Part shown: one piece after another, positions 18,492 to 23,267 of the stretch
Layout of the letters: each line of letters opens with the position of its first letter
Position numbering within the stretch: position 1 is the first letter of the stretch
Position numbers and translations under genes: made by a program
Assembly: GCA_014879565.1 (NCBI GenBank)
Contig: JACSRW010000022.1
Span: 1-64,000 of the forward strand
From: Chitinophagaceae bacterium
Lineage (GTDB): Bacteria > Bacteroidota > Bacteroidia > Chitinophagales > Chitinophagaceae
DNA: 64,000 nucleotides
Direction: 5' to 3'
Notes under the pieces: model-generated
Databases searched by the model: none
What the model was told of the DNA's origin: nothing
Seen by the model: the letters and a program-made list of their open reading frames with translations, nothing else

Positions 18492-19658
18492 ATGCAGCTG
18501 ATTGAAGTCAATTCTCCCCGGTTGGCCCGGGATTTTATCCGGGTTAATGTGGAATTGTACCGGGGTGACCCGAACTATATCCGTCCGTTGGATAAGGATA
18601 TCCATGAAATCTTTGATCCCTCTCATAATAAATCCTTCCGGTTTGGGGAGGCGGCACGCTGGGTTTTACGGGACAAAGAGGGCAAACTGGCGGGCCGGAT
18701 TGCCGCTTTTGTCAATAAAAAATATAAAACCAAGGGAGATACGGTACCGGTGGGTGGCATCGGTTTTTTTGATTGCATAGACGACCAGGCTGCTGCTGAT
18801 CTCTTATTCGATGTGGCCCGGCACTGGCTGCTGCAAAGAGGCATGGGCGCCATGGACGGACCGATCAATTTCGGGGAACGGGACCGCTGGTGGGGGCTCC
18901 TCGTGGATGGATTCAGGCCACCCACGTATTGTATGAATTACAATAAGCCGTATTACCGCCGGTTGTTTGAAACCTATGGGTTCCGCTGTTTCTTTAACCA
19001 GTATTGTTACGGACTGGATCCACGCCGGGAACTGAGTCCGAAAATCCTGGAAAGGCATGCCAACCTGGTCAAAGACCCTGCTATAAAATCCCGTCATATC
19101 AATAAAAACCAGCTGGAGAAATTCGCGGCTGATTTTGCCACGGTGTACAACAAAGCCTGGGCCGGTCACGGGGGTATGAAGGAGCTGAAAAATGAACAGG
19201 TGCTGGCACTGTTCCGGAGAATGCGGCCGGTGATGGATGAAAAGATTGTTTGGTTTGTGTATTATAATGAGGAGCCTATTGCGCTTTTTGTAAATATCCC
19301 GGACCTGAATCAATGGTTTAAATACCTGGATGGCCGGTTTAATTTCTGGGGAAAACTGAAATTTGCCTGGCTGCGGCTCACCCGGAAAAATAAACGCTTT
19401 GTCGGGCTTGCCTTCGGGGTGATCCCCGAATTTCAGGGCAAGGGGGTGGATTCTTACATGATCAATGAGGCCAAATTTGTGGTACAGGCGCTGAAGCAGT
19501 ACGAAGAGTATGAACTGCAATGGATCGGCGACTTTAACCCCAAGATGATCAGTGTCGCGGAAAATTTCGGGGATACTTTTCGCACCCGCCAGTTTATTAC
19601 CTACCGTTATCTTTTTGACCGGAGCAGTGAATTCAGCCGGCATCCCATACTGCACTGA
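18492..19658 (+). CDS. GNAT-like acyltransferase family protein (YghO type)
   Basis: A 388-aa soluble protein with an acetyltransferase-like fold. The C-terminal half contains the acyl-CoA loop pattern VGLAFGVIPEFQGKGVDSYMINE, equivalent to GNAT motif A (Q/R-x-x-G-x-G). The N-terminal part includes NYIRPLDKDIHEIFDPSHN and MGAMDGPINFGERDRWWGLL, strings typical of a conserved bacterial family resembling E. coli YghO. The substrate is unknown. It is followed by dnaX after 52 bases, with no evident functional link. Confidence 0.75.
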   Translation: MQLIEVNSPRLARDFIRVNVELYRGDPNYIRPLDKDIHEIFDPSHNKSFRFGEAARWVLRDKEGKLAGRIAAFVNKKYKTKGDTVPVGGIGFFDCIDDQAAADLLFDVARHWLLQRGMGAMDGPINFGERDRWWGLLVDGFRPPTYCMNYNKPYYRRLFETYGFRCFFNQYCYGLDPRRELSPKILERHANLVKDPAIKSRHINKNQLEKFAADFATVYNKAWAGHGGMKELKNEQVLALFRRMRPVMDEKIVWFVYYNEEPIALFVNIPDLNQWFKYLDGRFNFWGKLKFAWLRLTRKNKRFVGLAFGVIPEFQGKGVDSYMINEAKFVVQALKQYEEYELQWIGDFNPKMISVAENFGDTFRTRQFITYRYLFDRSSEFSRHPILH

Positions 19659-19710: not shown

Positions 19711-21525
19711 ATGGATAAATTCATCGTTTCAGCCAGAAAATACAGACCCCAGACTTTTGACACGGTGGTGGGACAAGCACATATTACCACCACCCTGCGG
19801 AATGCGATCAAAAATCAGCAGCTCGCGCATGCTTTCCTTTTTTGCGGACCCCGCGGTGTGGGCAAGACCACCTGTGCCCGGATCCTGGCCAAGACCATCA
19901 ATTGCGAGCACTCCACCAAAGACGGGGAAGCCTGCGATAAATGCCAGAGCTGCACTTCCTTTAATGAAGGCGCTTCGATGAATTATTTTGAACTCGATGC
20001 CGCTTCCAACAATTCAGTGGAGAATATCCGTGACCTGGTGGATCAGGTGCGGTTTGTACCCCAGACCGGCCGGTACAAAGTATATGTGATTGACGAGGTA
20101 CACATGCTCAGTTCGGCGGCCTTTAACGCGTTCCTGAAAACGCTGGAAGAGCCCCCTCCCTATGCCATTTTTATCCTGGCTACCACCGAAAAACACAAGA
20201 TCCTGCCAACGATCCTGAGCCGCTGCCAGATTTTCGATTTTAAACGGATCACCACGGCAGATACGGTGGAGCACCTGGAAAATATTTGCCGGAAAGAAGA
20301 AATAAATGCAGAGAAACCCGCCCTGCAGCTGATTGCCCAGAAAAGTGAGGGCTGTATGCGGGATGCCCTCAGTATCCTGGATAAAATTGTGAGTTTTACC
20401 AACGGGGAACTCCATTACAGCAATACCCTTGAACACCTCAATATTCTGGACGCGGACTATTATTTCCGTTTGCTGGCCTTTATGCAGCAACAGGATCTTT
20501 CTTCGGCAATGCTGCTCTATGATGATATTAACCGGAAGGGTTTTGAGGGAGACCTGGTACTGAACGGTTTTGCCGAATTTATCCGGAACCTGCTGGTATG
20601 CCGGGATGAAAAAGCAGCGGTGCTGCTGGAAACGGTGGAAAGCTTCAGGGACCGGTATACCGAAACCGCGAAGAAAGTGTCCCCCGCCCTGCTGGTCAGC
20701 GCCCTGAATATCCTGAATGAAGCAGAAATCAATTATAAAGCGGCCCGTAATAAACGGCTGCATGTGGAACTCTGCCTTATAAAACTCTGTTACCTCGGGC
20801 AGGCCCTGGAACTGGTATCCGATGCTTCCGGCACCGGCAAAAAAAAAATAACAGATACCCCACTGGCATTCAGAACCCGGAACATTATTCCTTATAGCAG
20901 GAATAATGCAGTTCCTGAACGGCCTTCCCAACCGCCCGTGCAGGAAGGAGCAAGGCTTTATTTGGACAGTCCGGCACCGGCAGTGATACAAGAAACGGTC
21001 CGGACTGCTACCCCGGCAGTATCCGCCTCCCCTGCCTCTCCGGCCTCTCCCGCTCCGCGCACCGGAAACGGCGGGGGGTTAAGCGCGCTGGATAAAATCC
21101 GGAAACAATACAAGGGCAACGGACAAAACGGGGCGGCTGTTGCTGCCCGGCCACTGGATACGGAATCCCTGCATAAAGCCTGGGCCGGGTATATTGAAAA
21201 ACTTAAAGCAGAACGAAACCCTGCTGCCCAGCCTTTCTCCCTGGCCCGGTTGCGGATAGTGGACCCGCAGACATTTGAAGTGGTGACCGGCAATAATATT
21301 GAACAAAAGTTCATAGAACAGGAGCGCAACAGCCTGTTTCATTTTCTGCAGGAACAACTGCAGAACAAACAACTCCAGTTTTCTGTACTGGTGGAAGAAA
21401 ATACCGGAGAAAAACAGGTAGCGGAACCGGTTCTGACCTCCAAAGAACAGTTTCTGAAAATGGCACAGGCCTATCCCCTGGTCGGGGAATTAAGAGACCG
21501 GCTGCGGCTGGAACTGGATTATTGA
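19711..21525 (+). CDS. dnaX: DNA polymerase III subunit gamma/tau
   Basis: Clamp-loader ATPase of the replicative polymerase. Domain I has the P-loop GPRGVGKTT (residues 46-54), a zinc module with C65, C75, C78 and C81, and VIDEVHMLS. Domains II-III extend to about residue 368, followed by a Pro/Ala-rich linker (about 390-455) and a C-terminal tau region, 604 aa in total. Codons 377-380 contain a run of ten A (20839-20848), placed just after domain III. Slippage there would create a short gamma-like product (see findings). Confidence 0.95.
   Translation: MDKFIVSARKYRPQTFDTVVGQAHITTTLRNAIKNQQLAHAFLFCGPRGVGKTTCARILAKTINCEHSTKDGEACDKCQSCTSFNEGASMNYFELDAASNNSVENIRDLVDQVRFVPQTGRYKVYVIDEVHMLSSAAFNAFLKTLEEPPPYAIFILATTEKHKILPTILSRCQIFDFKRITTADTVEHLENICRKEEINAEKPALQLIAQKSEGCMRDALSILDKIVSFTNGELHYSNTLEHLNILDADYYFRLLAFMQQQDLSSAMLLYDDINRKGFEGDLVLNGFAEFIRNLLVCRDEKAAVLLETVESFRDRYTETAKKVSPALLVSALNILNEAEINYKAARNKRLHVELCLIKLCYLGQALELVSDASGTGKKKITDTPLAFRTRNIIPYSRNNAVPERPSQPPVQEGARLYLDSPAPAVIQETVRTATPAVSASPASPASPAPRTGNGGGLSALDKIRKQYKGNGQNGAAVAARPLDTESLHKAWAGYIEKLKAERNPAAQPFSLARLRIVDPQTFEVVTGNNIEQKFIEQERNSLFHFLQEQLQNKQLQFSVLVEENTGEKQVAEPVLTSKEQFLKMAQAYPLVGELRDRLRLELDY
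20839..20848 (+). other. A10 slippery run inside dnaX
   Basis: Ten consecutive A span codons AAA AAA AAA and the first base of ATA. The +1 frame meets TAA at 20849-20851, directly after the run. The -1 frame meets TAG at 20895-20897 after 16 further codons. Both would truncate the protein to about 380-395 residues, the size of the clamp-loader gamma form. Confidence 0.65.
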
Positions 21526-21629: not shown

Positions 21630-23267
21630 ATGGCTGAAGTGATTTTAATGCCCCGGCTGAGCGATACTATGACCGAAGGTGTGATAGCTGCCTGGCACAA
21701 AAATGTGGGAGACCCGGTAAAAAAAGGGGACCTGCTGGCCGAAGTGGAAACGGATAAGGCCACAATGGAATTGGAAAGTTATAAAGACGGCATACTCCTG
21801 CATATTGGCACCGCCAAAGGAGGCAAACTGCAGGTGAATGATCTGCTGGCTATCATTGGAAGCGCGGGAGAAGATATTTCCTCCCTGCTGAACAGTTCCG
21901 CCAGTCCTGCCCCTGCAGCAGTTCCTTCCGCTCCTGTACCGGCAGAAGCGGCGCCGGCAGCCGGTACGGGCAGTCTGGATATTTCAAAGCTGGAAGAAGT
22001 GGTGCTGATGCCGAGGCTCAGCGATACCATGGAAGCCGGGGTGATTGCCGGATGGAATAAAAAAATCGGCGACCCCGTAAAAAAAGGAGACGTGCTGGCT
22101 GAGATTGAAACAGACAAGGCAACCATGGAGCTGGAAAGCTATAAAAACGGCACCCTCTTATATACAGGTGCCCAAAAAGGGGAGAAAATTGCGGTGAACA
22201 GCCTGCTCTGTATTATCGGCGAGCCCGGCAAGGTAGATGTGGATGCGATTGTAGCCGCTGCCAGTTCCGGAATGAGTTTAACTGCCCAGCCTGCACCTGC
22301 TCCTGCGGCAGCACCAGCCCCGGCAGCCGCTGCGGCACCGCAAACGGCTGTGGCACCGGTTAGCACTGCTGTCAATGCCCCCGCTGCCGTTTCAGAAAAT
22401 GGACGGTTAAAAGCTTCTCCGCTTGCCCGGAAGATTGCCAAAGAAAAAGGAGTGGATCTGCGTCAGCTGCGTGGCAGCGGAGACGGGGGTCGTATAATAA
22501 AGGCCGATATAGATAATTATGTGCCGGCCCCGGCTGCGGCGCAAAGTTCTGTTGCATCCATGCCTGTATTCCAGGCCAGCGGGGAAGAAGGGTATACAGA
22601 TATACCCAATTCCCAGATGCGGAATGTGATTGCCCGCCGGCTCGGAGAGAGCAAATTCAGCGCCCCGCATTTCTATCTTACGATGGAAATCAATATGGAC
22701 AATGCGATGAATGCCAGAACCCAGCTGAATGAACTCAGCCCGGTTAAAATAAGTTTTAATGATATGGTGGTGAAAGCCGTTTCCCTGGCCCTGCGTCAGC
22801 ATCCGGCTATCAATGCCTCCTGGATGGGGGACAAGATCCGTCGTTACAGTCATATTCACATTGGTATAGCCGTGGCGATAGAAGACGGGCTGATCGTACC
22901 GGTTGTCCGGTTTGCCGACCAAAAAACCCTTCCGCAGATTGCGGCAGAAAGCAAGGAACTGGCCGGAAAAGCAAAGAACAAAAAACTCCAGCCTAACGAG
23001 TTTACCGGAAACACCTTTACTATCTCCAATCTCGGCATGATGGATATTGACGAATTTACCGCCATCATCAATCCTCCCGACAGTTGTATTATGGCCGTGG
23101 GAAGAATCAAGGAGACTGTGGTGCGGAAAGGAGAAGGATTCGGTGTCAGTCATTTTATGAAAGTCACCCTCAGCTGTGACCACCGGAGTGTGGATGGCGC
23201 TTCCGGTGCCGCTTTCCTCCAGACATTCAAGAAATACCTGGAGAACCCGATTACAATGTTACTGTAA
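21630..23267 (+). CDS. pdhC: Pyruvate dehydrogenase E2, dihydrolipoamide acetyltransferase
   Basis: Core subunit of the pyruvate dehydrogenase complex; transfers acetyl from lipoate to CoA. It has two N-terminal lipoyl domains, each with ETDKATMELES (lipoylated K43 and K163), separated by Ala/Pro-rich linkers. An E3/E1-binding domain follows (KASPLARKIAKEKGVDL), then the catalytic domain with DHRSVDGASGA (H518, D522). The length of 545 aa fits a two-lipoyl E2. E1 and E3 genes are not adjacent. The gene ends at a strong bidirectional terminator. Confidence 0.93.
   Translation: MAEVILMPRLSDTMTEGVIAAWHKNVGDPVKKGDLLAEVETDKATMELESYKDGILLHIGTAKGGKLQVNDLLAIIGSAGEDISSLLNSSASPAPAAVPSAPVPAEAAPAAGTGSLDISKLEEVVLMPRLSDTMEAGVIAGWNKKIGDPVKKGDVLAEIETDKATMELESYKNGTLLYTGAQKGEKIAVNSLLCIIGEPGKVDVDAIVAAASSGMSLTAQPAPAPAAAPAPAAAAAPQTAVAPVSTAVNAPAAVSENGRLKASPLARKIAKEKGVDLRQLRGSGDGGRIIKADIDNYVPAPAAAQSSVASMPVFQASGEEGYTDIPNSQMRNVIARRLGESKFSAPHFYLTMEINMDNAMNARTQLNELSPVKISFNDMVVKAVSLALRQHPAINASWMGDKIRRYSHIHIGIAVAIEDGLIVPVVRFADQKTLPQIAAESKELAGKAKNKKLQPNEFTGNTFTISNLGMMDIDEFTAIINPPDSCIMAVGRIKETVVRKGEGFGVSHFMKVTLSCDHRSVDGASGAAFLQTFKKYLENPITMLL

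Follow-up and report, generated by a model that had tools for sequence, protein, structure and literature searches.

A conserved run of A in dnaX of a Chitinophagaceae bacterium and its relatives: a candidate slippage site for making two clamp-loader subunits from one gene

The dnaX gene of Thermus thermophilus is subject to transcriptional slippage on a run of nine A (PMC1088944, PMC5009743). The effect was demonstrated experimentally, with the two products formed in a ratio of about 1:1, and transcripts carrying extra A have been reported for Thermus (review PMC5009743). Escherichia coli arrives at its short subunit by a −1 ribosomal frameshift on the heptamer A_AAA_AAG, assisted by an SD-like and a hairpin stimulator (PMC3711429, PMC5009743). 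In Caulobacter crescentus, according to the same review, gamma is generated by proteolysis of tau; the short form likewise lacks the tau tail, but it is cleaved from tau and is not a product of slippage (PMC5009743). In an E. coli cell-free system, ribosome sliding gave little product on A9 or A10 and robust product on A11, and a truncated product was obtained with as few as three AAA codons (PMC4363877).

A further group of dnaX genes is known from a GeneTack cluster of 17 two-ORF fs-genes from 12 genera, of which Chloroherpeton and two Chlorobium species are named (PMC3711429). Twelve of the 17 contain 7 to 10 A, and nine species, unnamed in the main text, have ten A; these nine may overlap with Bacteroidia. 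In the GeneTack genes the zero frame encodes gamma and tau is reached by a shift. Two other papers were set aside: the frameshift in dnaX of Blochmannia (PMC3017870) lies downstream of the gamma site and is not comparable, and the relevant part of PMC3971599 merely lists dnaX as present.

The gene described here lies on a stretch of 64,000 nucleotides (the window) from a Chitinophagaceae bacterium (contig JACSRW010000022.1). On the forward strand, positions 19,711–21,525 form an open reading frame for a DNA polymerase III gamma/tau protein of 604 amino acids (67.6 kDa), tau being the zero-frame product. The protein matches above cut-off NCBIfam NF011531 (PRK14971, gamma/tau), TIGR02397 (residues 6–360) and, with domain III (residues 246–363, encoded by 20,446–20,799), Pfam PF12169. 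Ten consecutive A at 20,839–20,848 (forward strand) encode Lys377, Lys378 and Lys379 and provide the first base of Ile380, the codons reading AAA AAA AAA ATA. The +1 frame ends immediately 3′ of the run in TAA (20,849–20,851, forward strand), which gives a predicted product of 379 amino acids (42.7 kDa) from an mRNA with nine A. The −1 frame ends 16 codons past the run in TAG (20,895–20,897, forward strand), with a predicted product of 395 amino acids (44.6 kDa) from an mRNA with eleven A. An earlier note, made from the letters of the window, had given the run and both stops exactly so.

That note had also placed the run directly behind the last helix of domain III, at about residue 368. An AlphaFold2 model, calculated with 37 aligned family proteins as input (mean pLDDT 74.4), agrees with it: the helix ends at residue 370, and pLDDT is below 50 at residues 373–458, the disordered tau linker (20,827–21,084, forward strand). 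The run therefore sits at the start of the linker. The tau-only C-terminal domain (about residues 484–600; 21,160–21,510, forward strand) is ordered in the model.

We propose that the A10 run is probably a programmed slippage site, mainly for RNA polymerase, by which one dnaX gene gives rise to two clamp-loader subunits. RNA polymerase would slip on the run, and the resulting mRNAs would vary in how many A they carry. Those that keep the frame would be translated to tau (604 amino acids), while the two other frames would stop soon past the run and yield gamma-like proteins of 379 and 395 amino acids. These would still contain the ATPase part and domain III; the tau C-terminal domain and almost the whole linker would be missing. 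We infer from the features described below that slippage occurs in this organism, that it happens during transcription and not during translation, and that the short product serves as gamma.

The arrangement resembles that of T. thermophilus in that the A run lies past the shared N-terminal part, tau is encoded in one ORF and stops follow near the run in both other frames, the −1 exit of the window gene being longer than in its genus. It differs in that the runs are mostly A9 or A10, in the phylum, in the switching of the layout among relatives (see below), and in being known from sequence alone. With E. coli dnaX it shares the predicted pair of products from one gene; unlike there, the pure A run is longer, the +1 frame is closed too and general stimulators are not found. 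Unlike the GeneTack genes, the window gene and most of its relatives keep tau in the zero frame and have no two-ORF frame transition.

The run of the window gene by itself says little. Runs of ten or more A occur at 9 distinct places in the 3.43 Mb genome, two of the other eight lying in no open frame of 100 codons, and A9 has 99 overlapping matches. The rarity of A10 within this genome is only moderate, and it was dropped as a main argument since A9 is not rare. When the window dnaX was resampled with synonymous codons, a run of 9 or more A arose with P = 0.505 because the protein has the sequence KKKI. What exceeds chance in these sequences is the conservation of the run, not the single run in the window.

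Conservation was followed through 358 dnaX loci, of which 24 exact duplicates and 3 truncated loci were dropped before counting, leaving 331. The genus set came from 42 genomes, 40 of them with a complete dnaX (none complete in G014 and G032). The family set comprised 51 loci chosen from 113 family genomes with a match, namely, not counting that of the window, the 29 best, 3 from a further search and 19 low-scoring or atypical ones. The further genome search had 195 genomes with a match, and loci were fetched from among the matches listed, which stopped short of the weakest; outside the class, one or a few loci were taken per family code. The loci are thus a non-random sample.

In this sample a run of 9 or more A stands at the end of domain III in 288 of 331 distinct, untruncated loci: 39/40 in the genus, 48/51 in the family, 50/56 among titled close relatives, 1/2 in the order, 136/156 in the rest of the class and 14/26 in the other classes of the phylum. 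At least one locus with a run was found for 49 of 56 family codes within the class and for 10 of 22 outside it. Within the genus 15 loci have 9 A, 18 have 10 and 6 have 11; the sole exception, L020, reads AAAAAGAAA. Over all loci, the lengths jump at 9: seven A were counted at 7 loci, eight at 5, nine at 101, ten at 165 and eleven at 20, with one locus each for twelve and thirteen. Elsewhere in the same genes runs of 9 or more A are scarce (1/331 N-terminal and 6/331 C-terminal parts), and at the site the run is present in 41 of 53 loci of at least 50% GC. It starts in codon phase 0, 1 and 2 at 110, 109 and 69 loci, respectively, and the flanking sequence varies. What the earlier note had expected of relatives, a conserved run between flanking codons that are not conserved, was thus found in the genus and well beyond it. 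Conservation of a 9A run among homologs, the criterion employed in PMC1088944, was largely observed here.

The run is lacking at 43 of the 331 loci, a point against the slippage reading. Every member examined of the class family codes f33 (5 loci), f44 (3) and f24 (2) is without it; these lineages may have no gamma or may make it another way. L300 has A10 deeper in the tau part and none at the usual place, and its slip site may have moved.

Among 242 single-ORF genes with a run, 197 have a stop within 6 codons in each of the two shifted frames, as compared with 14738 of 111095 other positions (0.133) and 0.186 in a synonymous null. The −1 frame is closed within 4 codons in 0.963 of the genes (null 0.452) and within 6 in 98% (null 50%); for the +1 frame the values are 0.579 (null 0.426) and 0.826 (null 0.534). 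Among the titled relatives, +1 closure within 4 codons is under its null (36% vs 45%), and of the 8 single-ORF loci outside the class only 2 have the +1 frame closed within 6 codons. Within the genus, codons were counted from where the run begins: the +1 frame has its stop as the fourth codon at 36 of 40 loci, and the −1 frame runs for 3 to 5 codons ahead of its stop at 39 of 40, the exception being the window gene with 18. The missing early closure of its own −1 frame speaks against polymerase slippage, as does the stronger closure of −1 than of +1, which a −1 ribosomal shift would produce too; this asymmetry fits transcripts with extra A and also the ribosomal shift.

The second line of evidence comes from genes in which tau is not in the zero frame. 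Tau is in the zero frame in 244 of the 288 run genes, and at 46 loci the zero frame stops close to the site and the longest open frame is a different one (two-ORF layout); since short open frames were fetched deliberately, these shares are no estimate of frequency. The tau frame is −1 in 42 of the 46 and +1 in 4 (L216, L252, L324, L362). When 207 single-ORF genes were used to build a profile of the C-terminal domain of tau, this matched the shifted frame with E below 1e-5 in 41 of the 46 (37 in −1, 4 in +1); without a match were L145 and, from other classes, L269, L270, L271 and L366. Most of the 46 loci are like the GeneTack genes, in which tau is reached by a shift. Two of them with runs under 9, L191 (8 A) and L213 (5 A), were counted apart from the others. 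L213, of the class family f20, carries the tau domain in the −1 frame with merely A5 near the site. The third frame is closed within 12 codons at every one of the 43 loci that have both a run of at least 9 and more than 100 codons of tau frame.

The two layouts are interspersed: both were found within ten class families, and on a FastTree tree of 245 loci, which gives local support only, 29 layout changes are required. Branches whose local support is starred already force 21 of these, and the number could be inflated by sequencing errors in single genomes. On one branch of f13 all five loci (L222, L224, L225, L338, L339) share one layout. It is difficult to see how layouts could be exchanged so repeatedly if the two products were not formed irrespective of the templated frame.

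Three other explanations must be weighed. The run might merely reflect a patch of lysines required by the protein, slippage being a side effect. Lys377 and Lys378 are indeed invariant and Lys379 is nearly so in the 37 aligned family proteins, the four loci L020, L142, L163 and L171 keep Lys-Lys-Lys with an internal AAG, and synonymous resampling of the 242 run genes still produced at least 9 A in a row in an average of 39%. The lysine content by itself can therefore make the run likely, but not near-universal. Against this, the run is present in 242 of 280 complete single-ORF genes, whereas KKK elsewhere in the 242 genes (18 cases) is written as nine A only once, with AAA making up 71% of the Lys codons. 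The occurrence of the run in all three codon phases, the closure of the shifted frames well above the synonymous null and the 41 genes that require a shift to reach the tau domain also disagree with a lysine patch, which we regard as very improbable. Still harder to credit is that homopolymer errors in sequencing or assembly, or phase variation at the DNA level, cause the apparent run and the broken frames. Single errors could add to the number of layout changes, and L145 (titled Niabella hibiscisoli strain THG-DN5.5) has a dnaX that looks broken at A9, with a tau frame open only 35 codons and no tau domain, perhaps through homopolymer errors in the assembly. However, related genomes share one layout, as on the f13 branch, 41 of the 46 two-ORF genes have an intact tau domain in the shifted frame, and most run genes are unbroken.

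The most serious competitor, though we hold it to be unlikely, is a programmed −1 frameshift or sliding of the ribosome on the A run, which would make gamma as on A_AAA_AAG of E. coli. It would account for the tighter closure of the −1 frame and for tau lying in −1 in 42 of the 46 two-ORF genes. Every run of 9 A contains a zero-frame heptamer of the A_AAA_AAN type, 47 of the 288 run loci have A_AAA_AAG itself in the zero frame, and the truncated product that was reported for no more than three AAA codons (PMC4363877) points the same way. But the heptamer requires only 6–7 A, while the site lengths jump at 9; the +1 frame, too, is closed above expectation; and the four two-ORF genes with tau in +1 are unreachable by a −1 shift. 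Slippage of RNA polymerase is favored because of this lower bound at 9, a threshold longer than the ribosomal heptamer needs, and because the two wrong frames are both closed and tau lies in +1 in four genes; the scant product of ribosome sliding on A9 or A10 in the cell-free system (PMC4363877) also supports it. A modest excess of stimulators speaks for the ribosomal explanation. SD-like motifs precede the run in 49 of 288 loci (17%, control 8.4%), with 5 bases or more in 11 of 288 (control 1.2%), and strong hairpins follow it in 5.3% of 150 loci sampled from the 288 (control 2.4%); yet 239 of the 288 have no SD-like motif of 4 or more bases, and in the 150 sampled loci the downstream 50 bases are on average not more structured than the control, their GC-adjusted energy being 0.45 kcal/mol less stable. 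An account of the site as ribosomal from its SD-like motifs and downstream folds was rejected, the modest excesses being left over. At the window run neither an SD-like word in the 20 bases upstream nor a zero-frame A_AAA_AAG is present.

It has been argued that two tRNA-Lys favor polymerase slippage (PMC5009743). In the genome of the window a pattern search, the five loci of which were checked by ARAGORN, found one tRNA-Lys(UUU) and no match to a tRNA-Lys(CUU)-like pattern, so this argument is of no help here and the single tRNA-Lys counts for the ribosome. The CUU-like pattern was found in 33 of 60 family genomes, some of the matches not looking like a tRNA. In the window's genome (locus L370) the A run has been retained, and no second tRNA-Lys was detected.

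At a few relatives whose run is broken, the site looks E. coli-like. Of the 43 loci without a run, 13 combine a zero-frame heptamer with a −1 stop no more than 12 codons away. Five of the 13 (L131, L142, L163, L171, L309) hold a zero-frame A_AAA_AAG with the −1 stop 2–3 codons later, a point for the ribosomal shift at these loci. Going by these motifs, a switch from polymerase slippage to ribosomal frameshifting of the E. coli type is possible there.

Returning to slippage of RNA polymerase, the reading put forward in the earlier note is supported by the conservation of the run, the closure of the shifted frames and the existence of both layouts, all of them features of sequence. For the class Bacteroidia and part of the phylum we lean, with less assurance than for the site itself, towards a wider proposal: the dnaX run of 9–10 A would be an ancient frame-randomizing switch with two frames closed and one open, its length held near the slip threshold. 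Since either templated frame would lead to both products, the layout would drift almost freely and would have flipped some twenty times or more. Some lineages in which the run broke seem to have gone over to a ribosomal shift site resembling that of E. coli. The earlier note had held that the mechanism was unreported in the phylum. This was too wide, as poly-A two-ORF dnaX genes are known, including those of Chlorobi (PMC3711429); the breadth of the run and the switching of layouts in this class do look new. In titles and beginnings of abstracts of the open-access literature we found no report of the single-ORF layout in Bacteroidia.

In our view, how widely gamma is important outside a few model bacteria is not settled, and for E. 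coli a controversy is noted in PMC5009743. A slippery run in most of the class, as sampled, together with a layout that is swapped, argues strongly on evolutionary grounds that tau and gamma are both wanted there. For annotation it follows that a dnaX of this group may be called short, long or broken for no other reason than the frame that is templated. For studies of polymerase slippage the group offers many natural run lengths.

Two observations on the surroundings of the run may be added. A strong hairpin of 10 bp at 20,883–20,908 in the window begins 35 bases past the run and has the TAG of the −1 frame in its loop; it was not seen in 10 folded relatives of the genus. The ORF before dnaX (18,492–19,658) gave no match in an NCBIfam search, and the gene after it (21,630–23,267) encodes a pyruvate dehydrogenase E2 subunit (TIGR01349).
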